Below, one piece after another: positions 8,458 to 31,287 of a stretch of DNA of 64,000 bases; within the stretch, counting starts at the first letter, position 1; every line of letters starts with the position of its first letter. The position numbers and the translations under genes are program-made. Source of the stretch: a virus; the IMG/VR virus record IMGVR_UViG_3300035698_012122, positions 1-64,000 of that record; one strand, 5' to 3'. The notes beneath the pieces were generated by a model that had not been told where the DNA came from, ran no database searches, and saw only the letters and a program-made list of their open reading frames with translations.

Positions 8458-10032
8458 ATGGGTAAAAAATTTAAAGTAAATAACAATGTTCTTATAAATA
8501 TGCCAGTGACACCTCAACAGTTTGGTGAAGCTTTGCAATTCCCATCTGGTCAAACAGGTGATTACTATTCGGTAATTGCGTATAGTTCTATTTATTCTAA
8601 AGTGTCTCAGCAAATGTCATCTATTGTAAAAGCTGTAGATGAAATGAGTAGCTTCTATTTGGTAGACGTAATCATATCTCAATTATCAGATGATGCACTT
8701 TCACCTAAAGTTTCAGATGATGAGATTTTTAGTTACTCAGCAGACAACAATGAAAAAGCACAAAAAGAACTTGAAAGAATGTCTAGGCATTTAGGACTAG
8801 ATCAACTTATAGAAAATATCACACCAGAACTTTTAAAATATGGTGAATACGTTTTAAGAACTGAAATAGATGAAGGCGGTGAAGCCCTTGATATGTCAGG
8901 AAAAGAAAAGAAACGAACTAGAAGAAAAGCAAAGTCTATGGGTGTCACTGAATTATGTGATGATGTAGAACAAGGTTCTGTAGTTTCATTAACTCAAAAC
9001 GGAACTGTAGAAGGTTATCTTCAAACCAATCCCTTTACTGGTGGAGTTGAAAGAAAACAATTTGCAGACTTTATTAAATTCACATTAGGTGGTCAACGGA
9101 TAAGAGTAGATACTAAAAGTCTAATTCCAAACGCATCACTAACAGATAAGAAATTTTATAAAATGTACAAGTCACTTCCAAGGTTCATTAGAATTGGGAA
9201 GTCAATTATTTATACATACTTAACTAAATTAAAAGAGTTAGAGCTATTAGAAAAAATGGCCCCAGCTTTAAAACTAGATGCAATATCTAGGGGTAATTTA
9301 GTTGGTATGAATTTACCAGATAGATATAATCTGGAAGATGCTAAAAAGGCATCTACTCACTTTGAAGAAACTCTTAATAAAAAAGTCTCAATTGATCCAA
9401 CATCTTCAGATATTTCAGTAGCTAATATTATAACAACTGCTGGTAAAACTAGAATCATTCCATTGTTTGGCGATAAAGGTTCTTTGCAGAACTTAGATTA
9501 CAAAGATGACAATGCAAGTGAGTTATCATCTGAAGCTGAAGACCTTAGAAAACTTATCCTAAGTTCTGTAGGTATTCCATTTGAATTGGTATATGGTTCT
9601 GATGGTGATGGTAAAGGTGAAATACTTAAGCGAAATGCTAAGTACGTTAGATTCCTTAGAAAAATTCAAAAATCTATTTCCAATGGTTTGAGAGACTTAG
9701 CGTATATACATTTATCAAACAAAAACATTGATTATAAAAAAGAAGACATTTCAGTTCACTTTAATAAAAATTTAGTCGATATAGAAAACCTAGATCAAAT
9801 TGAACGTGATGAAGCAACAGTTAGTGGTTTATCTTCAGTATTAGATTTTGTAACAGAACTGAAAGATGCAATTGGTGAAGATAGGGTAAACCTAGAACCA
9901 ATTGCTAAATACATGGATGAGAATCTATCTACCATCGGTTTAACAGGTCTGATTAAAATGGATGACATCAAACCAGATGAACCACTTGTAACTGATGATG
10001 AAGAAGGGGAAGAAAATGAAGTTGTGCAATAA
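8458..10032 (+). CDS. Portal (head-tail connector) protein, gp20-like
   Basis: Forms the dodecameric portal through which DNA is packaged and ejected. The 524-residue product has features common to T4-type portals: a beta-rich first half with the basic stretch KKRTRRKAKS, the long stem helices around LLEKMAPALKLDAISRG, and a conserved core KTRIIPLFGDKGSLQNLDY followed by SSVGIPFELVYG. The C-terminus is acidic (DDEEGEENEVVQ). I start at 8458, since an in-frame ATG 78 bases upstream lies inside the RRM gene. Position after terminase and before core/protease genes agrees with the T4 order. Confidence 0.88.
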   Translation: MGKKFKVNNNVLINMPVTPQQFGEALQFPSGQTGDYYSVIAYSSIYSKVSQQMSSIVKAVDEMSSFYLVDVIISQLSDDALSPKVSDDEIFSYSADNNEKAQKELERMSRHLGLDQLIENITPELLKYGEYVLRTEIDEGGEALDMSGKEKKRTRRKAKSMGVTELCDDVEQGSVVSLTQNGTVEGYLQTNPFTGGVERKQFADFIKFTLGGQRIRVDTKSLIPNASLTDKKFYKMYKSLPRFIRIGKSIIYTYLTKLKELELLEKMAPALKLDAISRGNLVGMNLPDRYNLEDAKKASTHFEETLNKKVSIDPTSSDISVANIITTAGKTRIIPLFGDKGSLQNLDYKDDNASELSSEAEDLRKLILSSVGIPFELVYGSDGDGKGEILKRNAKYVRFLRKIQKSISNGLRDLAYIHLSNKNIDYKKEDISVHFNKNLVDIENLDQIERDEATVSGLSSVLDFVTELKDAIGEDRVNLEPIAKYMDENLSTIGLTGLIKMDDIKPDEPLVTDDEEGEENEVVQ

Positions 10033-10576
10033 AATAAATGAAGAGTTATCAAATGAAAGTGCCAAAGGCCTTAAAGACATTAACCCTGAATTGTTAAAAG
10101 TAATTTTAAAAGACGGTGGTGATGATATAGCTAGGGATGCTAAAGAGATTAAAAAGGTTTCAACTAAAGCTGGTGATGTCTACGTTGTTATAACTGATGG
10201 CCACTCTAACTACTTTAGTTTAAAGCATGGTTGGATTGGTGAAGAAGATGAAGGCCTAGATCATAAAGACTTTATCAAGCACCAAGATGAATTTGATAAG
10301 AACCTTAAGAAAAGTAAATCAGAAAAAATTACTGAAGCTCAACACTACAATACTAAAGTGCGTGAACTAGCTGAAACTATGGGTAGCCGTAAAATTAGAA
10401 TGGGTGTTAAAGAATCTAAAAAATATGTTGATAATATGATAAATGCAGATCATGCTTCACCTAACCCACTAGCTGATAAAGACCTTAAAATTCTACAGGA
10501 ATGTTCTACCCTTTTAGGTCAAACTATTCCAAGGCTTAAAGAAGTAAAGGAAACTAGACGCAAAGGTAAGAAATGA
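10016..10576 (+). CDS. Putative capsid-targeted internal or core protein 1
   Basis: A 186-residue protein opening with MKLCNKINEELSNES, the shared leader described for nine proteins in this window. It contains KITE|A (residues 104-108), matching the (I/L)xE|(A/G/S) consensus cut by T4-type prohead proteases, and a basic tail (KETRRKGKK). The middle has TDGHSNYFSLKHGWIGEED, which I do not recognise. The ATG at 10016 is preceded by GGGGA at five bases and overlaps the portal stop by 17 bases. A role as a packaged or prohead-core protein is inferred from leader, cleavage site and location. Confidence 0.6.
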   Translation: MKLCNKINEELSNESAKGLKDINPELLKVILKDGGDDIARDAKEIKKVSTKAGDVYVVITDGHSNYFSLKHGWIGEEDEGLDHKDFIKHQDEFDKNLKKSKSEKITEAQHYNTKVRELAETMGSRKIRMGVKESKKYVDNMINADHASPNPLADKDLKILQECSTLLGQTIPRLKEVKETRRKGKK

Positions 10577-11247
10577 AATTATGTAGTCAAATTAATGAAG
10601 CTATAAGTAACGAATTTGAACTTCATACTTCTGGAACAATTATAGAGGCATTGAAAATTGTATTCGCTTCTTATGCACTTCCATTTGAAGTATCAGAAGT
10701 TGAAATCGGTAATGGTGTAATTACATTAGATATACAAATAATCATTGAAGAAGAGAAAAGCGAATTTGAATTGCATTTCTTTGTAGATGAAGATGGTATT
10801 CCAAATGTTGCTGTATTCGATGATGAAGATGGTGATGAAGACTTTTTTGCTCATTCACTAAAGGGCATAGCATCCACTACAAAGGGTGCTGATGGAATAA
10901 CTGATATAGTTAACCTCATTGAACCGTCATGGCTAACAGAAGCCGTTATGATGGATATTTTAATGCCAGATGAAGATTCTGAATTGGAAGCTGAATTAGA
11001 AGAAGCTACTACATTTGTAATCCGTGATGGAAAAAAAGTTAAGAAGAAATTAGTTATAAGTAGAAGAAGAAAAGTTCTAACTGCAAAACAAAAAGCTGGA
11101 ATTAGAAAAGCGGTTAAAACTCGTAAATCTAAAAAAGGCCAAACAGCTAGAAAAAGAAAAATATCTAATAAGCTTAGAAAAAGAATGAAGCTTAAAAAGA
11201 ATACTAATAAAAGGCTAAAAGTAGCTGGAACATCTAGTAGGAAATAA
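10573..11247 (+). CDS. Putative prohead core protein with protease-releasable basic tail
   Basis: The leader is MKLCSQINEAISNE. Residues 20-140 are acidic (for example VFDDEDGDEDFF at 81-92). Two prohead-protease-type sites follow: LTE|A (121-124) and LEE|A (142-145). The last 80 residues are extremely Lys/Arg rich (SRRRKVLTAKQKAGIRK; ARKRKISNKLRKRMKLKK). Cleavage at LEE|A would free a small basic peptide suited to DNA binding inside the capsid, while the acidic part could serve as core scaffold, as in T4 gp67/gp68-type proteins. The start overlaps the previous stop (ATGA). Function is inferred. Confidence 0.6.
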   Translation: MKLCSQINEAISNEFELHTSGTIIEALKIVFASYALPFEVSEVEIGNGVITLDIQIIIEEEKSEFELHFFVDEDGIPNVAVFDDEDGDEDFFAHSLKGIASTTKGADGITDIVNLIEPSWLTEAVMMDILMPDEDSELEAELEEATTFVIRDGKKVKKKLVISRRRKVLTAKQKAGIRKAVKTRKSKKGQTARKRKISNKLRKRMKLKKNTNKRLKVAGTSSRK

Positions 11248-11472
11248 ATGGCCACTGTACCAGCAACTAAATTAGAAGGTGAAAAGCTACTTATAGAGTT
11301 AAGTAAGTTTACAGCAAAAGCTGGTAGAATCTTACTTAACAAAGGTAGCAAACCTGTTGAAAAGGATGAGGCCAGAACTGCATTAGGTTTATTAAACCAT
11401 GCCCAAGGTTTAGTTGGAACATCAGACCGTTCTGCTAGAAGATTATTAGCAATAGCCAAAAGGGCCTTATAA
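11248..11472 (+). CDS. Small head-region protein, 74 aa
   Basis: A small, basic, helical protein (KLLIELSKFTAKAGRILL; SARRLLAIAKRAL). Its ATG follows directly on the upstream TAA, so it is probably coupled to the basic-tail core gene. I recognise no family. Its position between portal and protease is where T4 carries its small prohead core genes, which makes a core role possible. Confidence 0.6.
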   Translation: MATVPATKLEGEKLLIELSKFTAKAGRILLNKGSKPVEKDEARTALGLLNHAQGLVGTSDRSARRLLAIAKRAL

Positions 11473-11474
11473 AA

Positions 11475-11903
11475 ATGAATGATAAAGAAACTAAATATAG
11501 TCATGCAGATAAACAAACAATGATGAAATTGTTTGACCTCATGGAAAATGTAAATGAAAATGTTATTTCGGCAAATAAAGAAATAACTGGTCTTAAAGTA
11601 AATGTTGGCCAGAACAACGTAATTCTAAAGCAACATCATGATAGGTCTACAAACCTAGAGGAAATTGTGAAAAAAGTTAAGGACGCATTAACAGAACTAA
11701 TTAAGAAAGTTGCTTCTATTAATACTAATGTGACTAATATTGATAAAGATTTAAAACCAATTAAAACTCATGTAACTAAAATTGAAAAGTGGACTAACAT
11801 GGTTTTAGGTGTTCCACTGTTTTTTAAATTAGTTTTTTGGGGTTTTGTTTTTGTTACATCAGGTTTTGGATGCTATAACGTAATTGTTAAAATGTTAAAT
11901 TAA
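11475..11903 (+). CDS. Coiled-coil protein with C-terminal membrane anchor
   Basis: Residues about 15-110 form a coiled coil (LMENVNENVISANKEITGL to VTKIEKWTNMV) with regular Ile/Val spacing. Residues about 113-138 are a single hydrophobic segment (FFKLVFWGFVFVTSGFGC). This layout recalls XhlA-type proteins, which have a coiled coil followed by one membrane helix and aid lysis, but I cannot confirm the family. It could also anchor the prohead initiation complex to the membrane, as T4 heads assemble there. Located among head genes, two bases after the upstream stop. Confidence 0.6.
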   Translation: MNDKETKYSHADKQTMMKLFDLMENVNENVISANKEITGLKVNVGQNNVILKQHHDRSTNLEEIVKKVKDALTELIKKVASINTNVTNIDKDLKPIKTHVTKIEKWTNMVLGVPLFFKLVFWGFVFVTSGFGCYNVIVKMLN

Positions 11904-11916
11904 GGGGTAAGGAATT

Positions 11917-12636
11917 ATGGAATTTAAGTTTAGAGAAGATGAAGATGCACAAGCGTTCCTAGCTGAAATAGGTGTATTTGAAAATATAGTTTCTATAACA
12001 AAAGAATTTGAACCAACAGATGAACAGATTAATGAGTTTATTAAATCTCGTGCTGGATATACTGGTGGAAGTAAAGATAAAGATAAATCTAATGCACAAA
12101 AAAAGAATTGGAGAAAAAACAAGGGAAAAATTAAGCGTGGCATTAAATCTTTCCATAAATCAGTTGAGGGAAAAAAGTTCCACCGTAATATGGGTAGATT
12201 TTTGGCAACTAGAATTACCAGAGATAAACTATCAGATAGGAAAGATGAAGCCTTTTCGATACTGGAAAATTTAGAATATATCAAAGCACTAAACAGTGCT
12301 AAACAACAGCTATATATAGAGTTAGACTATTTCCATCCCTTAACAGAACAAGCACAATTAGAATCTTTAGTGATGGATTACGCAGTGCCTTTTTTCCGAT
12401 CAATTGAAGAAAAGATGGTTTTCAATGAAGATTTAACAGTTGATGAATTTGATTTTTTACTTGAAATCGTAGACGAAACTAAACTATTATTAGAACTATC
12501 CGATAGTATTAACGTACCTATTGATAAATTGACGGAAATGTGGAAACCTATAGTAGTTAAACTAAATGTAGAAGATGGGTTTTCTCTTGAGCAATTCAAT
12601 GAAGAGTTAGCTAATGAAGTAAGGACACTTAATTAA
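11917..12636 (+). CDS. Hypothetical head-module protein, 239 aa
   Basis: No family recognised. The N-terminal 45 residues are acidic and helical. A very basic block follows (residues about 52-95: GGSKDKDKSNAQKKNWRKNKGKIKRGIK), and then an acidic helical C-terminal half (VDEFDFLLEIVDETKLLLEL). The mixture of basic and acidic blocks and the position directly before the protease-scaffold gene suggest a prohead component. The ATG of the protease follows its stop directly (TAAATG). Confidence 0.6.
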   Translation: MEFKFREDEDAQAFLAEIGVFENIVSITKEFEPTDEQINEFIKSRAGYTGGSKDKDKSNAQKKNWRKNKGKIKRGIKSFHKSVEGKKFHRNMGRFLATRITRDKLSDRKDEAFSILENLEYIKALNSAKQQLYIELDYFHPLTEQAQLESLVMDYAVPFFRSIEEKMVFNEDLTVDEFDFLLEIVDETKLLLELSDSINVPIDKLTEMWKPIVVKLNVEDGFSLEQFNEELANEVRTLN

Positions 12637-13983
12637 ATGAAGAACGTACCTATAATAGGCATTTCAAATGAACGTGTAAAATTTGAAATAGTCGAATCAA
12701 ATGAAGTTGATGGTGAACATATCATTGCTAAAGTGCGTGGTGTATTTTTCGTTCCAGATGGTAAATCAAGAAATGGTAGATACTATCCAAAAGAACTTTG
12801 GGAAAATGTTGTAAGTGACCCTGAAGTAATCGACAAATTAAAAACTAAAGCAATGTATGGAACTGTTGGTCATAGTCAAAAGATTGATGATGATGCAATT
12901 CTAAAAGGTTTAGTTTCTCATATTGTAACAAACATGGAAATTAAGAATGGTAAAGGAATTGGTGAAGCACTAATTCTGAATACACCAGCAGGTAAAAATC
13001 TAAATACGATATTACAAGCTGGTGGGTCAATGTTCGTTTCCACTAGAGCTGATGGTACTTTTGAAGGTAAACATGAAGGGTTGCCAATCGTTAGCCCAAA
13101 GACCTACAATTTCAATACAGTAGATTTTGTATTAGATGCTGGTTTTATAGAAGCCAATCCAAGCTTAACAGAAGCATATAATAATATATTAGAAACAAAC
13201 CAAGATAATAATGAAAACAAGGAAGGTAATATCATGTCTGAAAAACTAATTAAAATGCTATCTGATAGCAACGTAGACCTCAAAGTAGAAGTAAAAACTC
13301 TAACAGAGAGTCATTCAACTTTAACAGAAGAAAAAACTGTTTTAGAAGAAGAAAACAAACACCTATCAGGTGAAATGGTTAAGTTTGAAGAAGCAACTAA
13401 GAAAATTAAAGAAATGGAAGATGAAAAAGAAGCCGATGCTGAAAAGAAGAAGGAAGATGATAAAGAACTTTCAGAATTTAAAGAACTTGGTGAATCTTCA
13501 TCTGATGTTAAAGGCACTTTAAATAATGCTTTAACACATATTAAAAAAGTAAATGAAGAACTTGGTGGTTTTGATAATGCTAAAACAGCATTAGAAACAG
13601 CAATTACTTTTAAGAAATCAGTTGATGAAGCTGGTGGACTAGAAACTTTGATTGAAGCAAAAGCTAAGATTAAAGAAATGGAAGATGAAAAAGAAGATGA
13701 AGATAAAGAAAAAGAGAAAAAAGAACTAGCTGAAGAGTTAGGAATTTCTGAAGAAAAAGTAGCTGAATTACTAGAAACTAATTCTGCTGATGGAATCAGA
13801 AAAATGTTTACAGCATTAGAAGAAAATTTAGATAAGTCTAAATACAAAAAAATCTTTGAAAAGAAAAAAGCTAAATCTGAAGAAGATGATGGTGAAGATG
13901 ATGAAGATGATGATGAAGATGATGCTGATATTTCAGAATCTAAAATCTTATCAAAGAGTAATGCAAATTCAGTAAGTATGTAA
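12637..13983 (+). CDS. Prohead protease fused in frame to acidic scaffold
   Basis: Residues 1-180 match gp21-type prohead serine proteases: GKSRNGRYYPKELW (42-55), the catalytic His in VGHS (His79), VSHIV (93-97) and the Ser-containing GGSMFVSTRADG (129-140, Ser135). Residues 200-448 are a Glu/Lys-rich coiled-coil scaffold ending in a poly-Asp/Glu run (EEDDGEDDEDDDEDD). The junction holds SLTE|A (176-180), a likely self-cleavage site. T4 carries protease gp21 and scaffold gp22 as separate genes, so the fusion is notable. An internal start at 13234 could make scaffold alone. The usual HP of the His motif is HS here. Confidence 0.85.
   Translation: MKNVPIIGISNERVKFEIVESNEVDGEHIIAKVRGVFFVPDGKSRNGRYYPKELWENVVSDPEVIDKLKTKAMYGTVGHSQKIDDDAILKGLVSHIVTNMEIKNGKGIGEALILNTPAGKNLNTILQAGGSMFVSTRADGTFEGKHEGLPIVSPKTYNFNTVDFVLDAGFIEANPSLTEAYNNILETNQDNNENKEGNIMSEKLIKMLSDSNVDLKVEVKTLTESHSTLTEEKTVLEEENKHLSGEMVKFEEATKKIKEMEDEKEADAEKKKEDDKELSEFKELGESSSDVKGTLNNALTHIKKVNEELGGFDNAKTALETAITFKKSVDEAGGLETLIEAKAKIKEMEDEKEDEDKEKEKKELAEELGISEEKVAELLETNSADGIRKMFTALEENLDKSKYKKIFEKKKAKSEEDDGEDDEDDDEDDADISESKILSKSNANSVSM
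13221..13226 (+). promoter_or_regulatory. Internal ribosome-binding site for nested scaffold
   Basis: GGAAGG, preceded by AA, lies seven bases before the in-frame ATG at 13234 inside the protease-scaffold gene. This is as strong as the sites in front of stand-alone genes here and sits exactly at the domain boundary, between the protease domain and the coiled-coil scaffold. Confidence 0.65.
13234..13983 (+). CDS. Nested scaffold (core) protein from internal start
   Basis: In-frame ATG at codon 200 of the protease-scaffold gene would give a 249-residue protein starting MSEKLIKMLSDSN and consisting only of the coiled-coil, acidic scaffold part. It repeats the element IKEMEDEKE twice (at about residues 251 and 346 of the full product). 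Lambda uses the same nested arrangement for protease C and scaffold Nu3, letting scaffold be made in excess over protease. The strong internal ribosome site supports it; expression is not shown by sequence alone. Confidence 0.6.
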   Translation: MSEKLIKMLSDSNVDLKVEVKTLTESHSTLTEEKTVLEEENKHLSGEMVKFEEATKKIKEMEDEKEADAEKKKEDDKELSEFKELGESSSDVKGTLNNALTHIKKVNEELGGFDNAKTALETAITFKKSVDEAGGLETLIEAKAKIKEMEDEKEDEDKEKEKKELAEELGISEEKVAELLETNSADGIRKMFTALEENLDKSKYKKIFEKKKAKSEEDDGEDDEDDDEDDADISESKILSKSNANSVSM

Positions 13984-13997
13984 TAAATAGAGTAATT

Positions 13998-14043
13998 TGT
14001 GTGGGTGCTACACTTTAGCTAATCCACACATTTTTTGTTTTTC
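13998..14043 (+). terminator. Intrinsic terminator before the major capsid gene
   Basis: TGTGTGG (13998-14004) pairs with CCACACA (14024-14030), extended by one G-T pair, and is followed at once by TTTTTTGTTTTT. The loop is about 18 bases. It would end or reduce transcription after the scaffold gene, implying a separate promoter for the capsid gene in 14044-14150. An 11-base direct repeat CTACACTTTAG occurs in the loop (14008-14018) and again at 14068-14078. Confidence 0.75.
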
Positions 14044-14150
14044 CCAATTTGAGTTTAGTTTGGTTTCTACACTTTAGAATACACATAAAGAAAATTAGGG
14101 ATATTTTTTTAGAGTAACTAATATTAATCATAATTTATGGAGAAATTATT

Positions 14151-15584
14151 ATGAAACCAAATGAAATTAACGAAGATGTACTAAACCAAGAAAACACAAG
14201 ATTAGCTGAAGGGTATTGGAAAAAATACAAGAAGCAAATGCAATCACTGGAAAATGGTCTAGTTAATAAAGCTATGACACTTTCAGAACACCACATGGCT
14301 CAACTAGGTATGCAGTTAGACCAGTGGGAAAAATATACGCAAATGATGGAATCAAATGGTTCTTTAAACTCACTTGGAGAATTGCCAACAGTTGCACTAG
14401 ATGTAATTACAGCAACTTTAAGTGAATCAATTTTACCAGTAATTAGTTCTATTCAAACAATCAAAGCTCAAAACTCTTTAATTTGGTTTAAAGATATTGT
14501 TGCACTTGATTCAAAAGGTAATGTTACTGCTGGTGATGTTATGGTTAACCCAACTGAAGGTGTTAAAACACCACAAGGTTATGCTTCAGCTCAAGTAACT
14601 GGTGAAGATTCTGGTGATACAACTACTGGTACATTCGCTTATACTCATACTGTTAACGGTGGTGAATCTATCCGTAGACAAAATGTTAAAATTTATCTTC
14701 TATCAGATCCAGCAGTTTTTGCTAAAGATTTTGATGGTAAAGGTAAAGCATACGGTGAAGGCATGAGTGCTGTAATTGATTATGCAACTGGTATTATCGA
14801 AGTAACTCTAAGTGCAGACCCAGCTACAGGTGATAAGATCATGGTAGACTATGTTCAAAACTTAGAAGAAATGAGTGATGTTCGTAGACTTGGTTCACAA
14901 CTAAGAAGTGACAACATTGTTGCTATTCCTTATGCACTTAAGGGTGTTGCTGGAATGTTCCAAATGTTTGAACTTAAACAAACTTTTGGTGATTCTGCAT
15001 TACAAGATATGACTGATGATTTAGTTAGAGGTATCAATGCAGAGATTGGTGGAGATTTAATTTCTAAGTATAAAGCTAATGCACAAGGTACTACTTTATT
15101 CCAAGAATATAATCCACTAGTTCATACTGGTGTTCCAGAAGCAGATCATAACGCGGCCTACGCTTATAGACGAGCTGATGCTGAATCAGTAATCATGTCT
15201 AACAGTGGTAGAGGTGTAATTAAAGTTGTTATCGCTGGACATTTACATTGTGCAAAACTTAGAGGCATGGATGGATTTAATCTTCTATCTGATGGTGGAA
15301 GTTTAGGTGCTCATATTTTTGGTACACATAAAGGTGTTACTTATGTAAGAGTTCCAGATGAAAGTATTCTTGATAAGAGAGCTGGACTTGGAATCTTTAC
15401 TGGTACGAAGCCACTTGAAAGTGCTGGTGTTTATGCACCGTATATGCCACTTACAATTGGTGCTTCACCACTAGGGCCAAATCCATTAACGGAACAAAAA
15501 GTTGCGGCGAGTATGGCAGGAACTAAATGTGTTGTTCCAGCTTATGTTACGAACTTCAATGTTGCAGTAACTCCAAACCCATAA
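14151..15584 (+). CDS. Major capsid protein, gp23-like
   Basis: A 477-residue protein downstream of protease and scaffold and isolated between two terminators, the classic setting for the major head protein. The N-terminal 45 residues are helical and charged (the delta region), then comes ALDVITATLSESILPVISSIQ, common in T4-type capsid proteins, and later DDLVRGINAEIGGDLISKY and GFNLLSDGGSLGAHIFGTHKG. A probable beta-domain insertion lies around residues 175-245 (ATGIIEVTLSADPATGDKI). The N-terminus MKPNEINEDVLNQ resembles the shared leader, and LAE|G (residues 18-21) fits the prohead protease consensus. The exact maturation site cannot be fixed by eye. Confidence 0.88.
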   Translation: MKPNEINEDVLNQENTRLAEGYWKKYKKQMQSLENGLVNKAMTLSEHHMAQLGMQLDQWEKYTQMMESNGSLNSLGELPTVALDVITATLSESILPVISSIQTIKAQNSLIWFKDIVALDSKGNVTAGDVMVNPTEGVKTPQGYASAQVTGEDSGDTTTGTFAYTHTVNGGESIRRQNVKIYLLSDPAVFAKDFDGKGKAYGEGMSAVIDYATGIIEVTLSADPATGDKIMVDYVQNLEEMSDVRRLGSQLRSDNIVAIPYALKGVAGMFQMFELKQTFGDSALQDMTDDLVRGINAEIGGDLISKYKANAQGTTLFQEYNPLVHTGVPEADHNAAYAYRRADAESVIMSNSGRGVIKVVIAGHLHCAKLRGMDGFNLLSDGGSLGAHIFGTHKGVTYVRVPDESILDKRAGLGIFTGTKPLESAGVYAPYMPLTIGASPLGPNPLTEQKVAASMAGTKCVVPAYVTNFNVAVTPNP

Positions 15585-15605
15585 GTCTAAATAACAATTA
15601 AACTA

Positions 15606-15639
15606 AGCAGTAGGGTGTAAAAGCCCCACTGCTTTTTTT
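15606..15639 (+). terminator. Intrinsic terminator after the major capsid gene
   Basis: AGCAGTAGGG pairs with CCCCACTGCT with one mismatch, around a short TGTAAAAG loop, and is followed by seven T. Together with the terminator at 13998 it makes the capsid gene a separate transcription unit, as expected for the most abundant virion protein. Confidence 0.85.
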
Positions 15640-15659
15640 GTTAAACAAGGAAACTAAAC

Positions 15660-16250: not shown

Positions 16251-16269
16251 GAAATAATGGGGTATTGGT

Positions 16270-16938: not shown

Positions 16939-16941
16939 CTA

Positions 16942-18002: not shown

Positions 18003-18003
18003 T

Positions 18004-18318
18004 ATGAAACTATGTGAAGAACTAGATGTTGCTATGAATGAAGAGATTGTCCAAGTTACTAAAGATTTAAAAATGGTGGACAAGTCTAAAGCAACAGGTA
18101 AAGGCAAGAAGCCTATTATATACCTAAATGGTTCGGATGGTTACTGGTACAATAAAAGTGGAATATTAAATCAGATTAGAGCTAAAGGTGAAATAAAAGA
18201 ATTTGGTTTTACCAAAGGAAATGATGACATGGCAAAAGCTGAAAAAGATTTTATGGATAAAAAAATAACAATGTCAGCTTATTATGAACTAGCATCTGAA
18301 TTAGACCACAACAATTAA
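18004..18318 (+). CDS. Putative capsid-targeted small protein 3
   Basis: I start this 104-residue protein at 18004, with GGAG six bases upstream, which gives MKLCEELDVAMNEE. The first 21 bases are identical to those of the next gene at 18329, although the proteins differ after that. The middle has YLNGSDGYWYNKSG; the C-terminal half is helical and charged. No obvious (I/L)xE|(A/G/S) site lies near the leader, so processing is less clear than in other members. Confidence 0.6.
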   Translation: MKLCEELDVAMNEEIVQVTKDLKMVDKSKATGKGKKPIIYLNGSDGYWYNKSGILNQIRAKGEIKEFGFTKGNDDMAKAEKDFMDKKITMSAYYELASELDHNN

Positions 18319-18328
18319 GGATATAAAT

Positions 18329-18742
18329 ATGAAACTATGTGAAGAACTAAACAAAGAAGTTAAAATGAGTACCAGTGAAGCAATTGATAACAACACCTAT
18401 CTAGGTGGTTATTTAAATGCACTTCTATTTGTTGGAACTGATGAAGAAGATAACCCATTAGATGATGAACATGACATTGACGATATTGATAAAGATTCTG
18501 TTAAGAAATCTGAAAAAGATATTGCTAAGTTTCTTAAAATGGCTAAAAAAGAATTAGAAGGAATTGAAGCTGATGATTCACAAATTGGTCATGACATTCT
18601 AATGACTAGACAAGGCACTGGTGTTGGTTTTCTCGATAGAGACTATGCTGATGATGCAATATTAAAAAAGTTAGATGGGTATGCTGATAAGCTTGGAAGC
18701 GTTTCACCTTTTGCTGAAAACGGAACTGTAGGAATTGATTAA
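18329..18742 (+). CDS. Putative capsid-targeted small protein 4
   Basis: Leader MKLCEELNKEVKMS, then a 120-residue domain with a very acidic part (EEDNPLDDEHDIDDIDKDS). Near the C-terminus is IGHDILMTRQGTGVGFLDRDYADD, which reminds me of an uncharacterised small-protein family common in phages with a GHDFxLTRxGHGxGFWDR pattern; here the aromatic residues are partly replaced. The function of that family is unknown to me. The ribosome site is AAGG in the spacer from the upstream gene. Confidence 0.6.
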   Translation: MKLCEELNKEVKMSTSEAIDNNTYLGGYLNALLFVGTDEEDNPLDDEHDIDDIDKDSVKKSEKDIAKFLKMAKKELEGIEADDSQIGHDILMTRQGTGVGFLDRDYADDAILKKLDGYADKLGSVSPFAENGTVGID

Positions 18743-19428: not shown

Positions 19429-19447
19429 ATAATAAGGGGAAATTCCA

Positions 19448-19810: not shown

Positions 19811-19888
19811 TATAGTATTATTATAAAAGATATTAACAAAAAAGTTATTTAATATATAAAAAATTAAATAGAACAACGGAGGTTTTAT

Positions 19889-21721: not shown

Positions 21722-21741
21722 TTCTAAAAGGGGAATAAGTT

Positions 21742-22275: not shown

Positions 22276-22284
22276 TTCTAAAAT

Positions 22285-22324
22285 TTATAATGGGCCTTAG
22301 CTAAAACCTTTGGCCCCGTTATAA
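22285..22324 (+). promoter_or_regulatory. Hairpin after the tube gene without T-tract
   Basis: TTATAATGGG (22285-22294) pairs with CCCGTTATAA (22315-22324), ten pairs including one G-T, around a 20-base loop with further CC/GG pairing. No T-run follows on the plus strand, so it is a poor intrinsic terminator. It may stabilise the 3' end of abundant sheath-tube mRNA or partly block readthrough. Confidence 0.45.
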
Positions 22325-22344
22325 AAAATCGTTAAGGTAAACCA

Positions 22345-23034: not shown

Positions 23035-23062
23035 TCGTTAAATAAGGAATAAGGAAACAATC

Positions 23063-23908: not shown

Positions 23909-23959
23909 AAGAGTAGTAGAATATTTTAAAGAAGATAAGAAATAGCACCAAGGATGGTA

Positions 23960-25906
23960 ATGGCAACAGTTACTTCAGATACAAGTATAATGGACATCTT
24001 AGGCGGTGGTGCTTCTTCTCAACATTTTGAGTTGATGGAAGAGAGTAATGACCTAGCACGAGAAGAACTAAAGAGACATGAAGCAGTAGCTAATGAAATG
24101 GCTTTGATGTCCACTAATGCTGGAAATTTTAAAGAGTCACTTCAATCCACATATATCCAAGCAACTACAAAATTACATGATGGGATAGTTAATCCACTTA
24201 AACAGATTCGTAGTGAAGCTACAGCATCATATAATACGCTTACTAGTTCTGTTCATGAAATGGGAATGGGTGTAACCGAAAAACTTTCAGATGTTAAGGA
24301 AGGTTTTAAAACTGGACTATCAAATGTTAAAGAAGGTTTTTCATCTAGCGTATTAGATTTAAAAACTGGTTTCACCGATGCGGTTACATCTACTAATGAA
24401 TTTTTAGATGGAATGTCTGTAAAGATGGAAGCATTTAGCAATCTACCAACAGAACAAAAACTATTACTAGCTGGTCAAACAATTGCAGATGGTGTTGTTT
24501 CATCCTTTAATGCATCATCAGAAATTCTAAGTGCTGGAATGGAATCATTAGGAACTGGTATTACAGCAGTTGGTGGTTTTGTTAAATCATCTGCTGGATA
24601 TTTAAAAGGCCTATTTCAAAAATCTGAAGAAGGTGAAGATGTTGGTGGAACTTCTGGTGCTGGTGCAGATAGTAAAAATTCAAAAGAAGATGATAGTACT
24701 TCTGGTGGTGGAATTGGTTCACTACTTGGAAAACTAATGCCTAAAGGTCTTTTAAAGATGTTTGGTAAAACTGGTAAGGTACTTGGAAAACTTGGTAGGT
24801 TTGCTGGAAAATTAGCTCTACCATTAGTTGCAATCATGAGTATATTTGATTTCGTAGGCGGTGTTCAAAATGCTTCAGAAATAATAGGTAAACCAGAAGA
24901 TCAATTATCAAATTTAGAAAAAGCTGGTGCTGGATTAGCTGGTGTTGTTTCAGGACTGACACTTGGTTTTGTAGACGCTAGTACTATTTATTCTGAAGGT
25001 GCTCAAATAATAGATTCTGTTAGCGGTTTTGCTTCAGACATATTTAATAGTTTACCATCAGGTGTTCAAGATGGATTAACAAAAGTATCAGATGTTTTAT
25101 TCAGTTCTGAAACTGGTATCTTCTCATCTATTGGTAGAATCTTTTCTGAAAACATTGATGCAATTGCAGATGGTGATTATGGAACATTATTATTAAATGT
25201 TTTAACTCTACCTTTACAAGCACTTTTTAGTAGTGATGGGATAATAGCAAATACATTTAATAGTGTTATGGAACTTCTACCTAATTCATTCAAAGATTCT
25301 ATTGGTGGTTTTGTAGATACTATAATGGGGTGGTTTGATAAAATTAAAACCATGGCATCAGATTTAATTCCAGATTCATTAAAGAGTTTAATAGATGGAA
25401 CGCTTACTTCTGATATTGGTAAAAAAGTATCTGGAACTTTAGGTAAAGGTGTTGATTCTGTAAAAGGTTTCTTTGGCTTTGGTGGAGATAAAGAAGAAGA
25501 AGTATCTGATACAAAAATAAAAGAACGTAAATCTATAAACGAATTTGCAGATAAAAAAGCAATTGATAAAGACACTACAAGTAGAAAAATAAAATCAGCT
25601 AGTTCTTCAGCAATAGTAGTTAGATCAAGTGAGCAATCTGGAAACCAAATAAGTGAGAAAAAAGCAAGGGCAAAAACAGTTACTAGAAATAGTAGGGTAA
25701 ATGCTAAAGCAAAAAATATTAAAGATTCCGATACTGCTACTAAGCGGTCTAAAGAACAGATGAATAAGAAACAGGATATTCAACCTGTTATTATACAATC
25801 ACCAGCACCAGCTCAAAAAAGCAGTGGTAGCGGTAAACAACTAAACACCAGTACAACTATTGGTGATACTGAATTAGCAGTTATGAACTCTAATATGATG
25901 GATTAA
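23960..25906 (+). CDS. Probable tail tape-measure protein
   Basis: A 648-residue protein, the longest between tube and hub genes, with the make-up of a tape measure: long helical parts, a hydrophobic segment (LALPLVAIMSIFDFVGG) in the middle, repeated amphipathic loops (LPSGVQDGLTKVSDVLF; LLPNSFKDSIGGFVDTIM), and a disordered basic tail. Residues about 105-138 show three 11-residue repeats (LSDVKEGFKTG, LSNVKEGFSSS, VLDLKTGFTDA). I start at 23960, six bases after AAGG, instead of the overlapping ATG at 23954. It sets tail length and may enter the host membrane. Confidence 0.7.
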   Translation: MATVTSDTSIMDILGGGASSQHFELMEESNDLAREELKRHEAVANEMALMSTNAGNFKESLQSTYIQATTKLHDGIVNPLKQIRSEATASYNTLTSSVHEMGMGVTEKLSDVKEGFKTGLSNVKEGFSSSVLDLKTGFTDAVTSTNEFLDGMSVKMEAFSNLPTEQKLLLAGQTIADGVVSSFNASSEILSAGMESLGTGITAVGGFVKSSAGYLKGLFQKSEEGEDVGGTSGAGADSKNSKEDDSTSGGGIGSLLGKLMPKGLLKMFGKTGKVLGKLGRFAGKLALPLVAIMSIFDFVGGVQNASEIIGKPEDQLSNLEKAGAGLAGVVSGLTLGFVDASTIYSEGAQIIDSVSGFASDIFNSLPSGVQDGLTKVSDVLFSSETGIFSSIGRIFSENIDAIADGDYGTLLLNVLTLPLQALFSSDGIIANTFNSVMELLPNSFKDSIGGFVDTIMGWFDKIKTMASDLIPDSLKSLIDGTLTSDIGKKVSGTLGKGVDSVKGFFGFGGDKEEEVSDTKIKERKSINEFADKKAIDKDTTSRKIKSASSSAIVVRSSEQSGNQISEKKARAKTVTRNSRVNAKAKNIKDSDTATKRSKEQMNKKQDIQPVIIQSPAPAQKSSGSGKQLNTSTTIGDTELAVMNSNMMD

Positions 25907-25908
25907 TT

Positions 25909-26664
25909 ATGGCCTTTAAAATAAATTCACAAGGTACAGCAGAATTACAAGCTAATGAACTTTATAAGTTTCTAATAGCTGGTTCTGGAATAGCAGTTGA
26001 AGGACAAATGCAAAATCAATTATCAATTGGTGGAGCAAATGGATTTACAGATGTTGCAAGTGTTTTATCCGAACTAGCAGATGTTGCTGGTGGAGTATCA
26101 AAAACTTTAGGTGCTGTTATTGGTCTAGCGAAGGCCGCGAAACAAGGTTTAAATGCAGTTAATCAAGCATCATCACGTTCTAAAATAACAGACTTTGAAT
26201 CTCGTTTAATATGGGAATCATCTGAAAAACCACAGTTCGTAATTGAATATACTTTTTATAATGAATCACAATCACAAGCTGAAAGTTCAAAGGGTGCTTT
26301 ATCTCAAGCACTAGCATTGCAAAGGGCGGTTCTACCATCAAAAGGTTTACCAGCAAAAGGAAGGCCCGGTGTTTTCTTTAAATCACCACTTGGATATAAA
26401 CCAAAAACTGGTGGTAACAAAGTAGCTCAAGGAACTTTAACACTTTCAATTGGTAGATGGTTTAGAGCTTCAGACTTAGTTGTTAAATCAACAAACTTTA
26501 CACCTTCAGTTCAAGTTATGGGTAACGGTCATCCAGTTCTAGTGAAAGGTTCAATTACTTTAGAACCATCAGAATTAATTACATACGAAACATTTAAAGG
26601 TTATTTTAGAAATGTAACTACAAATTCTGCTAACAGTGGGAATACAATTTTAGGAAGCTTATAA
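25909..26664 (+). CDS. Baseplate tail-tube cap-like protein
   Basis: A 251-residue protein. The first 110 residues are Ala/Gly rich with a helical stretch (VSKTLGAVIGLAKAAKQGL). The C-terminal part has a tube-like pattern (KVAQGTLTLSIGRWFRASDLVV, then VQVMGNGHPVLVKGSITLEP). Located between tape measure and gp53-like wedge, it may be the gp48/gp54 counterpart. The start overlaps nothing but follows the tape measure stop by two bases; the next ATG overlaps its stop (TAATGG). Confidence 0.55.
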   Translation: MAFKINSQGTAELQANELYKFLIAGSGIAVEGQMQNQLSIGGANGFTDVASVLSELADVAGGVSKTLGAVIGLAKAAKQGLNAVNQASSRSKITDFESRLIWESSEKPQFVIEYTFYNESQSQAESSKGALSQALALQRAVLPSKGLPAKGRPGVFFKSPLGYKPKTGGNKVAQGTLTLSIGRWFRASDLVVKSTNFTPSVQVMGNGHPVLVKGSITLEPSELITYETFKGYFRNVTTNSANSGNTILGSL

Positions 26665-27023
26665 TGGCAAACGATAAAGAATTTTTTATTAATACAGATA
26701 TAAAAACAGAGAAAAGATATGATCTAGCAAAGTTCTTAGAACAAGGTGCAGATAGTTTTGACCCTTTAACATCTTCTCTATTAGATAGGGTGGATAAATT
26801 AGAGCTAGGTGGTTACTACACTGTTCAAGGTGAAGATGGGATGCCATGGCTACTATCTGAAAGGCTTTATGGAGATAACCAATACTGGTGGATTATTATG
26901 CTCTATAACGGTTTTGCTGGTATAGAAGACATAACAAACGGTGAAAATATAAAGTACCCATCTATAAATGCAATCCAAGATGAATACTTCACGTTAAAAA
27001 CTCGTGAAAGGACAAGCGAATAA
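26664..27023 (+). CDS. Baseplate wedge protein, gp53-like (LysM-like)
   Basis: The 119-residue protein carries the gp53 pattern: YTVQGEDGMPWLLSERLYGD, then QYWWIIMLYNGF, GIEDITNGE and YPS near the end. This resembles a LysM fold (a slot for the first strand, WLLSERLYG, NQYWW, and a G-x-x-x-x-x-P close). In T4, gp53 clamps neighbouring wedges when the baseplate assembles. Overlaps both neighbours by one base, indicating a tight operon. Confidence 0.78.
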   Translation: MANDKEFFINTDIKTEKRYDLAKFLEQGADSFDPLTSSLLDRVDKLELGGYYTVQGEDGMPWLLSERLYGDNQYWWIIMLYNGFAGIEDITNGENIKYPSINAIQDEYFTLKTRERTSE

Positions 27024-28174
27024 TGTTGTTCGGTAAAGAAGGTCAATATGTATGTTCTATAAATATTGAAGGCATTGATGCTGAATTTATGGAACATGAT
27101 GACTTAGAAATTCTAAAGATAGTTGAAGAAGCTGGAAATGTTTTACCAACTTTTGCATTGTCATTTACAACTTACTTAGAAGATGTAATGTCAAAAATGA
27201 ATGATGGTGCAATAATTAAAGTATCAATGGGTGTTGATATTGAAAACATGGAAGACTATGAACTATCAGTATCTAAATTTAGTTCTGAAGTAGTTGGCAA
27301 TACAAATGTTAAAATTTCATGTATCGGTTTTGCATCAAAAATAAATTTCATTACAGACCAACCATTACAAATAACTGCTGAAAAATCTGGTATTGAAGTA
27401 GCTATTGAAACAGCATCTAAGAATTTCAAAGTAGATTCCAACATCACAAAATCTAAAGATAAAATGAAATGGATTCAATACTCAGTAACAGATAAGAAGT
27501 TTGTATCAGATTGCTTACTTCACAGTGAGATTACAGATTCATTTATTGCTTCAGCTATTACAGCTAGTGGTAAATATATTATTAGGGATGTTAAGAAGTA
27601 TGTTAAATCTTTGAAAGGTTCTTATGATTGGAAGTTTACAAAAGACAATGATGGAAAACCAAATAGTATTATAATTGAAGGTGGATTAAATATTAGTTCA
27701 CGTTCTGGTTTTATAAACAATTGGACTGGATATAAAAAGATAGCTAATGGAATTAATATAAAGAAAAAAGAAACTACTGATGTGTTTACTGAAGATACGG
27801 AAGTTTTACTTTCATTAGCTTCAGAATTAGATAAGGCCAAAACAATTACAGATAGATTCTCTGGTACTAGGATTTTATCAGATAATGTTCATGAAACTTA
27901 TTGGGAATGTTATGAAAAGAATCTAAAGGGATTGGCCTCTTTATCTAGGATGGGAATACCAGTTAGCTTCTCAAATGAGTTTAGAAGTGTAGAACCACTG
28001 CAAATTGCAATGTATTCACAACCATCTACAAATAATGAAGATGAAGCTAGTGAATATGTAACAGGTCTGTATATAATATCTAACGTAACAAAAACAATAC
28101 AAGCTAATATGTTCAACATTACTTGCATCTTAAATAGAGAAGCTTTAAATGTTGTAGACAATGAAGGGGTATAA
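27023..28174 (+). CDS. Baseplate hub protein, gp27/gpD-like
   Basis: A 383-residue protein with the layout of tail hub proteins: an N-terminal barrel with EILKIVEEAGNVLPTFALSF, a second barrel region (VKISCIGFASKINFITDQP), a middle KFVSDCLLHSEITDSFIAS, and a C-terminal half with GTRILSDNVHETYWEC and a late strand LYIISNVTKTI. It would form the trimer that carries the spike at 29735. The family is inferred from fold pattern and operon position; no single diagnostic motif. Confidence 0.65.
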   Translation: MLFGKEGQYVCSINIEGIDAEFMEHDDLEILKIVEEAGNVLPTFALSFTTYLEDVMSKMNDGAIIKVSMGVDIENMEDYELSVSKFSSEVVGNTNVKISCIGFASKINFITDQPLQITAEKSGIEVAIETASKNFKVDSNITKSKDKMKWIQYSVTDKKFVSDCLLHSEITDSFIASAITASGKYIIRDVKKYVKSLKGSYDWKFTKDNDGKPNSIIIEGGLNISSRSGFINNWTGYKKIANGINIKKKETTDVFTEDTEVLLSLASELDKAKTITDRFSGTRILSDNVHETYWECYEKNLKGLASLSRMGIPVSFSNEFRSVEPLQIAMYSQPSTNNEDEASEYVTGLYIISNVTKTIQANMFNITCILNREALNVVDNEGV

Positions 28175-28175
28175 A

Positions 28176-28646
28176 TTGAAATCAATTAACGAAGCAATGA
28201 AGGAATTTGAAACTAAAGATAAAGATATTAGTATTTTTGAAGCTAAAGAATTTGATTATGATAAGTTCCAAAAGACTTTAGAAAAACTACAAGGCAACGC
28301 TAAAAAAGCTGAAGAAAACTATACAGATTATTCTTCAGGTGAACAAAGTAAAATACAGGATGCACATTGGGCCAACCAAGACCTAATGCTTAAATTCAAA
28401 GACAAACTAGGCAAACAAGCTAGAAAACGTAATGATGCTGGTGAAGATCAAAAAGAAATAATGTCAGATTTAAATTCCAAATTTGCAGACTATGTTAAGA
28501 AGATTGGTTTTGCAGATTCTAAAAAAGCATATCATGATGCTGATGTTGTATGGAAGAAATTTCTAACAGCTATGGAAAATGCTAGAAAAGAATTACGTGA
28601 CCATGAAGGTACAAAGCCAATGAAAATAAGCGGTTTCGGAAACTAA
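28176..28646 (+). CDS. Putative capsid-targeted internal protein 5 (TTG start)
   Basis: I start at the TTG at 28176, which lies one base after the hub stop and has AAGGGGT six bases upstream. This gives MKSINEAMKEFETKD, and 24 bases of the coding sequence are identical with the gene at 30871, supporting the choice over an ATG 15 bases earlier. Cleavage-type sites are INE|A (residues 4-7) and IFE|A near residue 22. The rest is a charged helical domain (YDKFQKTLEKLQGNAKKAEE) of 130 residues with no known family. Confidence 0.65.
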   Translation: MKSINEAMKEFETKDKDISIFEAKEFDYDKFQKTLEKLQGNAKKAEENYTDYSSGEQSKIQDAHWANQDLMLKFKDKLGKQARKRNDAGEDQKEIMSDLNSKFADYVKKIGFADSKKAYHDADVVWKKFLTAMENARKELRDHEGTKPMKISGFGN

Positions 28647-28655
28647 AGGAGATAT

Positions 28656-29261
28656 ATGAAAACTTTAACAGAACAATTAAAATTAGAACTAGGTGAAGAA
28701 AAAAGCATCAAAAACAACGGATATAAATACAGTCCGATAAAGTTAAAGGATGCACTTAAAAAACCAAACTCTAAAGATTTAGGTGCAGAAGCATCTAAGC
28801 ATGATGAAAAAGATATTGAGGTTTATTGGATTGAAGATGAATCACTATTAGATAATGTAAAAAACAAAGGTAATCTTCTTTGGATTATAAAAAGTAAAAA
28901 AAGTGAAGGTTCTTTAAACAGTCTAGGTGCTTTACCTAAAAAAGGTGTTGAAAAGAAACCTGTAGTTGAAGCAATGAAAAAAATAACTGACAAGATGACT
29001 GATGCTATGAAAGACGATAGCAGTATAAGCACCTTAACAGTTTTATTTCTACGAGCTGTTGTTAATAATAAATTCCCTTTAAAGTTTGATATGGATAAAG
29101 GCAATGGAGAAATTACATTTGATTTTGGTGTAGTTCCGTTTTCAATCGGAAACGAAAATGTAAACTTTGAAATTGGTAAGGGTAAGGTTTCTGCAAAAGG
29201 TAATGATGATGCTTTTGCTGTAGTTAAACACCTATTAGAAATTGATAAACTAGCACAATGA
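28656..29261 (+). CDS. Putative capsid-targeted internal protein 6
   Basis: A 201-residue protein starting MKTLTEQLKLELGEE, a looser form of the shared leader. The middle has KDIEVYWIEDESLLDNV and a Lys-rich linker; the C-terminal 80 residues are a small alpha/beta domain (PLKFDMDKGNGEITFDFG). No family recognised. A strong AAGGAGA precedes the ATG. It sits between two members of the leader family, which supports membership. Confidence 0.55.
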   Translation: MKTLTEQLKLELGEEKSIKNNGYKYSPIKLKDALKKPNSKDLGAEASKHDEKDIEVYWIEDESLLDNVKNKGNLLWIIKSKKSEGSLNSLGALPKKGVEKKPVVEAMKKITDKMTDAMKDDSSISTLTVLFLRAVVNNKFPLKFDMDKGNGEITFDFGVVPFSIGNENVNFEIGKGKVSAKGNDDAFAVVKHLLEIDKLAQ

Positions 29262-29277
29262 CCATAAAGGATAAATT

Positions 29278-29727
29278 ATGAAAAACATTTCTGAAGCAAT
29301 GAAAGAATTTAAAACTAATGAAAAACCAGTAAACGAAAAACGTAAAAAGATGAAACAAAAAGAAATGATCGAAGAGTTAAATAGTTACGGTGGTAGTAAT
29401 AAGAACATCTTTGTTTTTGACCCTGATTCGGGTAAGTCATTTAGCATTTCTCACATAACAGAAAATGGCCCTAAAACTCTTCAGATGAATGTTGATTCGG
29501 CATGGTGGGATAAAAACGAATCAGTTGATGAAGCCAAAACAATAAATCCATTATCACAACTAGATAAAGGTTCTAGTACAGTTCTTTTTGATCTTCTAAA
29601 ACTTAATGGAATAGAAGACGTAACAGAACTAGGTAAAAATGCAAAAGCTAAGAAGAAACTTTTAGATGATTTAGATTTTGCTAAAGGTGTGCTTGAAAAG
29701 GTTATTAAAGAAGTACACTCACTATAG
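29278..29727 (+). CDS. Putative capsid-targeted internal protein 7
   Basis: Begins MKNISEAMKEFKTNEKP, closely like the leaders at 28176 and 30871, with ISE|A (residues 4-7) as a candidate cleavage site. A short domain follows (NIFVFDPDSGKSFSISHI), then a C-terminal half with LFDLLKLNGIEDVTELG, which resembles a helical bundle. The upstream spacer CCATAAAGGATAAATT is close to that of 30871 (CCATAAGGGGTAAAT), so leader and ribosome site seem to have been copied together. Confidence 0.6.
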   Translation: MKNISEAMKEFKTNEKPVNEKRKKMKQKEMIEELNSYGGSNKNIFVFDPDSGKSFSISHITENGPKTLQMNVDSAWWDKNESVDEAKTINPLSQLDKGSSTVLFDLLKLNGIEDVTELGKNAKAKKKLLDDLDFAKGVLEKVIKEVHSL

Positions 29728-29734
29728 GAATTAA

Positions 29735-30508
29735 ATGTTACTAAAATTTGCAGATCATTTAAAACCATCTAAATCATTGAAAAGATTTCATAAAGGAATC
29801 GTAGTAGATAATGAAGACCCTGATAAATTGGGAAGAGTTAAATGTACTGTTAGCAGAATGTTTATAGGTGATAAAGCAAATTTACCATGGGTTTTTCCAA
29901 AGAATGATTCACCAGTAAAATTTGATGTTCCTAAATTAGGTGCAGAACTAATTATCATATTCCCTTTTGAAAATATTTATGCACCATTTCATGATGGTTA
30001 TTGGCATACACTGGACAATCACAATGATTACTTTGATGATGATTATCCTAATACTTCTGGTTTTTTCAAAGAGAATCTAAAAGGTAAATTTAACGATAAA
30101 TCCAAAGCTGGTGAAGTAGAACATAGTTCTGGAACTAAAGCAGAACTAGCAGATGATGGAAGCGTAACAGTGGCCATTGCAAAAGATTTAGAGTTAACTA
30201 TTGAAGGCAAATATGCCGTTAATGCTAAAGGTGATATGACCTTTGCAACAGATGCTAAAATAAGTTTTGCTGGTGCTGGTGGATTGGATTACACAACAGA
30301 TGGTAATGCAGTTTTTAAAGGTACTGGTGGAACTGATGTAGGTGATGCATCAAGTGCTACAAACGTAAAAGGTTCTGTAGTTAATTTAGCTGGTGGTGGT
30401 TCGGCAATCGCACTTCTTGGTTCACAATGTATAGGGTCAGGAAATCATGGAGCACCTGTTGTAAGTAATATTGTAGAAGGAAGTAGTAAGGTGTTTGCAC
30501 CAAAGTAG
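29735..30508 (+). CDS. Baseplate spike protein, gp5/gpV-like, without lysozyme domain
   Basis: Residues about 18-110 form an OB-type domain: HKGIVVDNEDPDKLGRVKC, LPWVFPKND, PKLGAELIIIFP. This is the normal start of gp5 and gpV spikes. It is followed by a beta-helix-like stretch of short repeats (VTVAIAKDLELTIEGKY, YAVNAKGDMTFATDAK, GNAVFKGTGG) and ends with GAPVVSNIVEGSSKVFAPK. At 257 residues there is no room for the lysozyme domain of T4 gp5. It would sit below the hub and pierce the outer membrane. Confidence 0.82.
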   Translation: MLLKFADHLKPSKSLKRFHKGIVVDNEDPDKLGRVKCTVSRMFIGDKANLPWVFPKNDSPVKFDVPKLGAELIIIFPFENIYAPFHDGYWHTLDNHNDYFDDDYPNTSGFFKENLKGKFNDKSKAGEVEHSSGTKAELADDGSVTVAIAKDLELTIEGKYAVNAKGDMTFATDAKISFAGAGGLDYTTDGNAVFKGTGGTDVGDASSATNVKGSVVNLAGGGSAIALLGSQCIGSGNHGAPVVSNIVEGSSKVFAPK

Positions 30509-30513
30509 GATAG

Positions 30514-30855
30514 ATGAATTTATGTGAATCAATTAACTATGCAATAAACGAAGGTGTAAAAGACTTCATAAAAGAGAAGTTTAAAATCAAAGACGATGCC
30601 TTTGAAAAAACAGAACCAGATCATTGTGTTAAATCAATTGCTAAAACTAAAGATGGTTGGGTAGGATTTAGTCATAGAGCATACCATGAATTTAAAGTTG
30701 GTGATAAATTGTTCGATGCTAAATGGGATGATGATGGAAACCTAACTGAAGAAGAAGTTGAGAAACTAAAATTTGTAGAACGTGGTGCTAAAAAATGTAA
30801 AAATCAAGAAGACTGTAAACAAGCATCTGCAAATTTTGCACAATATGTATCATAA
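30514..30855 (+). CDS. Putative capsid-targeted protein 8 with WxGxSHRA domain
   Basis: The N-terminus MNLCESINYAINEGVK contains INE|G (residues 11-14) as a candidate protease site. The rest holds GWVGFSHRAYHEFKVGDKL and ends CKQASANFAQYVS. I recall small uncharacterised phage proteins with a GWSHRA...F..GD pattern and a FAxxVS end, so this is probably a known but unassigned family carrying an added leader. The gene starts six bases after the spike gene stop. Confidence 0.6.
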   Translation: MNLCESINYAINEGVKDFIKEKFKIKDDAFEKTEPDHCVKSIAKTKDGWVGFSHRAYHEFKVGDKLFDAKWDDDGNLTEEEVEKLKFVERGAKKCKNQEDCKQASANFAQYVS

Positions 30856-30870
30856 CCATAAGGGGTAAAT

Positions 30871-31287
30871 ATGAAATCAATTAACGAAGCAATGAAAGAT
30901 TTTAAACTAAATGAGAAAAAAGAAAAGGTATCAGAAGCTAAATCAACTTTCACATTAGACAGTATGCCAGATGAAAAAGAAGCTATGAAAATTCTTAAAG
31001 ATGGTGGAATTAGTTTTTCTAATAAAAAGAACAAGTTCACATTTGACGATAAAGATTACGATAAAGCAGTTAAGATGCTTAATGCTAAAGAAATTGAAGG
31101 CATTGATGAGAAAAAAGCTGATGAAGCAACAATGTTTCCATCTGAAAAGAAATTCTATAGTGGAATAGAAACAGTTTATAAAATACTTAATTCAGCTAAA
31201 GACAAAACAGCTTCTAAAGAACTTGTTTCTGAATTGGCTAAATTAGAAAATAAAATGCTTAAATTTTTAAGAGCTGAAGATATATAG
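30871..31287 (+). CDS. Putative capsid-targeted internal protein 9
   Basis: Leader MKSINEAMKDFKLNE with INE|A at residues 4-7 and a second candidate, VSE|A, near residue 22. Its first bases are identical over about 24 positions with the gene at 28176. The cargo part shows KEAMKILKDGGISFSNKKNKF and a helical C-terminus (ETVYKILNSAKDKTASKELV); it differs from the other cargo domains. AAGGGGT lies seven bases before the ATG. Confidence 0.62.
   Translation: MKSINEAMKDFKLNEKKEKVSEAKSTFTLDSMPDEKEAMKILKDGGISFSNKKNKFTFDDKDYDKAVKMLNAKEIEGIDEKKADEATMFPSEKKFYSGIETVYKILNSAKDKTASKELVSELAKLENKMLKFLRAEDI

Follow-up and report, generated by a model that had tools for sequence, protein, structure and literature searches.

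Capsid-targeting leaders are well studied in bacteriophage T4 and have been sketched in P1. The internal proteins (IPs) of the T-even phages are described as diverse anti-defence proteins in which only the capsid-targeting sequence (CTS) is conserved (PMC3012670; PMC9391042). In P1, N-terminal residues send the antirestriction protein DarB into the head, the first 30 being sufficient for a reporter, and no N-terminal consensus was found among the Dar proteins (PMC9024508). In SPN3US and phiKZ-like phages, N-terminal propeptides are removed from head and ejection proteins by a cut after Glu (AxE); most of these propeptides are long and do not amount to a common short leader (PMC10052503). Here we describe nine small genes from an uncultivated tailed phage, located in positions 1-64000 (the window) of the 76,685-base virus record IMGVR_UViG_3300035698_012122. 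Their products share N-terminal leaders ahead of unrelated cargoes, and it is very likely that these leaders are capsid-targeting sequences working like those of the T4 internal proteins in another clade of myoviruses, with exchangeable cargoes that would in part serve counter-defence.

As in T4, a short common leader stands at the N-terminus of diverse small proteins, and the same genome encodes a gp21-family (S77) protease and Gp23/Gp20-like head genes (Table 1). Unlike in T4, the leader genes are more numerous and are interspersed among structural genes, the leader sequence is different, the cargo families differ and include Tad6, and cleavage is only predicted. Ungapped comparison of the leaders with the T4 CTS (MKTYQEFIAEA) gave scores of 7-16 and no homology, one sub-set scoring higher against T4 gp67 (see below). 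We therefore regard the system as one that appears to work like the T4 internal proteins while being no sequence member of the T4 CTS. The shared leader also separates the window proteins from the P1 Dar proteins and, by its shortness, from most SPN3US-type propeptides, with which it would have in common removal after a Glu.

All nine open reading frames (ORFs) of the leader genes were found within a T4-like head and tail cluster, each preceded by a sequence resembling a ribosome-binding site (RBS). The MKLC-type sub-set comprises 10016, 10573, 18004, 18329 and 30514, while MK(S/N)I(N/S)EAMK(E/D)F-type leaders begin 28176, 29278 and 30871, with 28656 as a looser member. Upstream in-frame ATG codons exist for 10016 (at 9995) and for 28176 (at 28161), the TTG start of the latter being favoured by RBS spacing and by its match to 30871. 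When the N-termini of the 77 genes of the record were compared over residues 2-11, 13 pairs reached a BLOSUM62 score of at least 22, against a null mean of 0.46 when residues were shuffled in place and of 0.32 for interior windows, with a maximum of 3 pairs in 500 trials for each null. As a positive control, the same test on pieces of T4 recovered ipI/ipII/ipIII plus one other pair. Once the first 16 residues had been removed, an all-against-all comparison of the cargoes yielded nothing significant (best blastp E 0.045; no phmmer match). A preceding sequence-only reading had proposed that nine dissimilar small proteins carry common leaders, and this is borne out by the excess of pairs over the 0.3-0.5 expected and by cargoes that are not detectably related. 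No leader gene was seen in the last 12.7 kb of the record (L082).

Table 1. Leader genes and head and tail genes of the window (arrows mark putative cut sites; single numbers are those given for the gene)
Feature	Coordinates	Strand	N-terminus or match	Context and homologues
Terminase	2600			
T4-like portal protein	8458..10032	+	PF07230, E 3e-7	
Leader gene	10016..10576	+	MKLCNKINEE...	Between portal and protease; homologues with other leaders at L091:5639, L094:2308, L095:2998, probably L196:1823
Leader gene	10573..11247	+	MKLCSQINEA...	Prohead-core position; basic C-terminal domain matches phrog_1053 and C-terminus of L002:4002
Fused prohead protease (S77, gp21 type) and acidic scaffold	12637..13983	+	Motifs GTVGH, VSTRADG; PF03420, E 1.3e-11	
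Major capsid protein, Gp23-like	14151..15584	+	Weak match, under Pfam cut-off	N-terminus contains INE↓D, LAE↓G
Leader gene	18004..18318	+	MKLCEELDVAMNEE...	Occupies slot between 17592 and 18742
Leader gene	18329..18742	+	MKLCEELNKEVK	phrog_1915 cargo; Vequintavirinae homologue without leader starts at residue 13
Sheath	19889			
Tube	21742			
Leader gene	28176..28646	+	TTG start, MKSINEAMKEF...	Corresponding slot empty in relatives
Leader gene	28656..29261	+	Looser leader MKTLTEQLKLELGEE	Cargo weakly resembles L092:8013
Leader gene	29278..29727	+	MKNISEAMKEF...	Corresponding slot empty in relatives
Baseplate gene	29735			
Leader gene	30514..30855	+	MNLCESINYAINEG	Tad6-family cargo (PF25188, residues 25-113, E 8e-14)
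Leader gene	30871..31287	+	MKSINEAMKDF...	Corresponding slot empty in relatives

The fused protease-scaffold gene is the immediate upstream neighbour of the capsid gene. The S77 protease profile matches T4 gp21 (E 2.6e-10) and finds a relative in nearly all capsid-related loci that include the region. The generic leader resembles an amphipathic helix (hydrophobic moment 0.50 versus 0.31). Hydrophobic residues occupy its positions 4, 7, 8 and 11, and Glu is over-represented at 6 and 12. The motif [LIVMFC]xE occurs within residues 4-20 in 86% of the catalogued leaders versus 38% of other N-termini, these being compatible sites only. The cut MKSINE↓A proposed earlier is doubtful; because near-identity in that sub-set continues through EAMK(E/D)F, a cut at a later Glu is more likely from the pattern of conservation.

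The window capsid protein, used as a single-sequence query against viral contigs, found no match, and a capsid-protein alignment as the query gave 53 related loci; these relatives are not independent, several being near-duplicates, and their genes were called with a simple caller. An initial set of relatives obtained with a protease query was set aside, as it consisted mostly of distant marine phages without leader families. Many of the 53 loci carry a leader of their own on at least three dissimilar genes, with 3 to about 18 proteins per genome. The leader reads MSKAK... on about 18 genes of L002, MNKAQKLL... on ten of L100, M(K/R/A)L(I/V)(D/N)EL... in L125/L108, MKLVNEIN... in L091, MKTAQDILTICES in Vibrio phage 1.031.O and MRLVRLTED in Streptococcus phage vB_SagM-GXN1, and nine genes of L115 share yet another. 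A KYDW cluster in L095 was rejected as a leader family; its members are paralogues whose similarity extends past the start. Leader similarity is 19.2 within and 5.3 between genomes, a contrast partly built in because members were picked by within-genome similarity. In L196, a Thiotrichaceae metagenome-assembled genome that was held out, exactly three N-termini exceed the 99% null of a generic leader profile trained without it, and all three genes, one of them a Tad6 homologue, lie between the portal and core genes. The profile is not universal, as neither the Streptococcus MRLVRLTED leaders nor leader-like starts in L169-L171 rise above the 99% null.

Less dependent on within-genome selection is a comparison of 23 orthologous cargo pairs, in which leader similarity to the orthologue is 10.7 versus 19.7 to other leaders of the same genome. 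Some cargo pairs between the sister genomes L108 and L125 keep the same leader, and the homologues of 10016 bear three other leaders. Homologues of the 18329 cargo occur in Vequintavirinae; in CR9, where the gene stands among small hypothetical genes, the initiator Met of the leaderless homologue aligns to residue 13 of the 18329 protein, right behind its 12-residue leader. No match to the seven cargoes other than those of 18329 and 30514 was found in named phages, nor was a homologue of 18004 found. In the three close relatives L091, L092 and L095, homologues exist for 4 of the 9 leader genes versus 26 of 27 neighbours (Fisher p 0.0018). The flanking structural genes are collinear there, and the slots of 28176-29727 and 30871 are without a leader gene; only L091 has a Tad6 homologue, in a different slot. 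The sequence-only reading had counted against itself any cargo conserved in related phages without its leader. This was found for some cargoes, yet it supports leader swapping, since what stands in its place is as a rule the leader proper to the other phage. Its proposal that one leader is joined to many cargoes is strengthened by the dialects of the relatives, the genome-specific leaders on orthologues, the leaderless homologue and the gp21-family protease in the genome.

Composite proteins extend this picture. The 948-residue product of L002:4002-6848 consists of a leader, an AAA ATPase into which an intein-like Hint/homing-endonuclease region is inserted and, at the C-terminus, a phrog_1053 domain, with a second leader copy at residue 691, a domain junction; the phrog_1053 part is the separate gene 10573 in the window. 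Likewise, the pyrophosphatase-domain protein of L145:14620-15690 (Vibrio phage 1.031.O) has an N-terminal leader and an internal copy, MRSAHNILSICES, at residue 190, again a domain junction. Such internal copies would fit processing at the leader. The homologue of L145:14620 in phage 150E35-1 is 75% identical and has a different N-terminal leader.

Indirect evidence that leader proteins reach the particle comes from a relative, the cultured Yersinia phage YerA41, for which 63 particle-associated proteins were identified by liquid chromatography-tandem mass spectrometry (LC-MS/MS), several of them suggested by the authors to be injected (PMC7354516). In GenBank, YerA41_059, 066, 205c, 206c, 208c and 209c are labelled 'structural protein'. 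Five of the labelled proteins begin with the leader MSRISxLNKKFE, whose sequence differs from that of the window leaders, and YerA41_059, the Tad6 homologue, carries an internal leader-like segment, SRIGELNAKFEG; 210c has the leader and not the label. The YerA41 homologue of 30514, with YerA41's own leader-type segment, is thus an annotated particle component. The searched parts of the paper make no mention of a common leader. The YerA41 genes 60790 (Cas4-like) and 11825, considered as leader genes, were judged to be chance matches. The structural labels and virion proteomics of YerA41 thus lend indirect support to the packaging proposed for the leader proteins of the window phage.

Tad6 is a family of type I Thoeris inhibitors. 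The 30514 protein matches its profile with 52.3 bits (cut-off 27), and the residues of the Tad6 core GxSHRA (G51, S53, H54, R55 and A56) are invariant in 16 sequences; its cargo probably counters Thoeris defence, judging by this family membership. Tad6 cargoes are found in the window, L091, YerA41 and L196, that of L091:6816 covering positions 9-145 of the profile behind its leader. For 30514, no relative in the PDB was found by sequence, and Foldseek on a moderate model (predicted local distance difference test, pLDDT, 75.5) gave no match below E 0.001; a model of 18329 was discarded as too poor (pLDDT 42). Among other cargoes, YerA41_066 joins a RimK-like ATP-grasp to a zinc-protease-like domain, AAA ATPases occur in L002 and L100, L145:14620 contains an inorganic-pyrophosphatase domain, and in L135:1578-1868 the leader MNKAQKILKEFAES precedes a ferritin-like EncFtn/rubrerythrin-like domain. 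The EncFtn family is known as an encapsulin cargo. One catalogued leader protein, presumed to be L145:14620, matches the PHROG 'DarB-like antirestriction'.

Several points weigh against a capsid-targeting role. No leader family was seen in several of the relatives. YerA41 is distantly related (22.6% identity in the capsid protein), its leader pattern was drawn after the labelled list had been seen, its 'structural' labels were taken as the mass spectrometry result, and the leader of YerA41_059 is found 14 residues into its ORF as annotated. The enrichment of labels among its pattern-defined genes (5/7) is modest, with a hypergeometric p of 0.004-0.03 depending on the denominator. Candidate cut sites are not uniform, hydrophobic-(x)-E↓(A/G/S) being present in 49% of leaders versus 18% of other N-termini. 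Finally, 30514 covers positions 55-145 of the 145 of the Tad6 profile, so that the N-terminal subdomain is missing, and its function as a Tad6 is read from family assignment only.

These points have to be set beside other explanations of the shared N-terminus. It is hardly credible, and largely refuted, that it represents a translational or regulatory element at the DNA or RNA level, such as a start-codon context, with no peptide signal. Two gene pairs do share leader DNA, over 21 bases in 18004/18329, as noted earlier, and over 25 in 28176/30871, for which about 24 had been reported, and these matches suggest more recent leader copying. However, in 28 of 73 comparisons an identical leader residue is encoded by different codons, free synonymous choice predicting 29.3, which indicates that the peptide and not the DNA is conserved, and the relatives retain the leader pattern with quite different sequences. 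Very improbable, too, is an origin of the nine genes as divergent paralogues that retained only the N-terminus: their common start and compact cluster would agree with it, but the cargoes lack similarity and belong to differing families, one of them has a leaderless homologue, and cargo homologues in other phages bear other leaders.

A possible though less likely explanation is that the leader marks assembly helpers associated with the prohead core or scaffold, kept or degraded in the head, with no delivery to the host implied. The genes 10016 and 10573 sit between portal and protease, where T4 has gp67/gp68, and close relatives retain them; the MKSINEAMKEF leaders are closer to T4 gp67 (best scores 20-21) than to the IPs. 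Against this, the majority of leader genes are accessory, with no counterpart in close relatives, and the Tad6, RimK ATP-grasp, AAA ATPase, ferritin-like and pyrophosphatase cargo families are unlike scaffold parts.

If the leaders are instead targeting sequences of the T4 kind, an amphipathic peptide at the N-terminus, about 10-20 residues long (M-x2-A/hydrophobic-x2-L-L-x2-hydrophobic-E), would draw small proteins of unrelated kinds into the prohead core, where the gp21-type protease 12637 would probably trim it after a Glu. The trimmed proteins would exit the virion with the DNA and act immediately in the cell just infected. Every lineage of phages would keep its own leader dialect, and cargo would be gained when a new gene enters between conserved structural genes and becomes joined to the leader in local use. 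On balance, we lean towards the broader view that lineage-specific leaders serve a whole clade of myoviruses, most of them uncultivated, as an exchangeable packaging code by which counter-defence proteins, including Tad6-type proteins, are recruited into the virion, with inhibition starting from DNA entry. If so, virion-delivered effectors would be predictable from sequence alone: a sequence-legible, lineage-varying, cargo-swapping leader code would let the probable injected proteins of uncultivated phages be listed, and Thoeris inhibition, perhaps with other counter-defences, would be placed at DNA entry.

Some further observations concern leader-like starts and the placement of Tad6. In L091:5639-7334 and L196:1823-3112, a Tad6 homologue comes right after genes resembling 10016 and 10573, in the interval from portal to prohead protease. 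Short Tad6 homologues in the contigs L169-L171 start with peptides that look leader-like by eye. Single leader-like genes of ~105 residues occur soon after the capsid gene at L083:9332-9649 (Rhizobium phage TM39) and L144:15396-15710 (Acinetobacter phage Ab1-TPeters). In the window itself, an apparent DNA cytosine methyltransferase at 694-1656, with a TTG start, begins with KVGSYFSGCGGLDLPF, as judged by eye.

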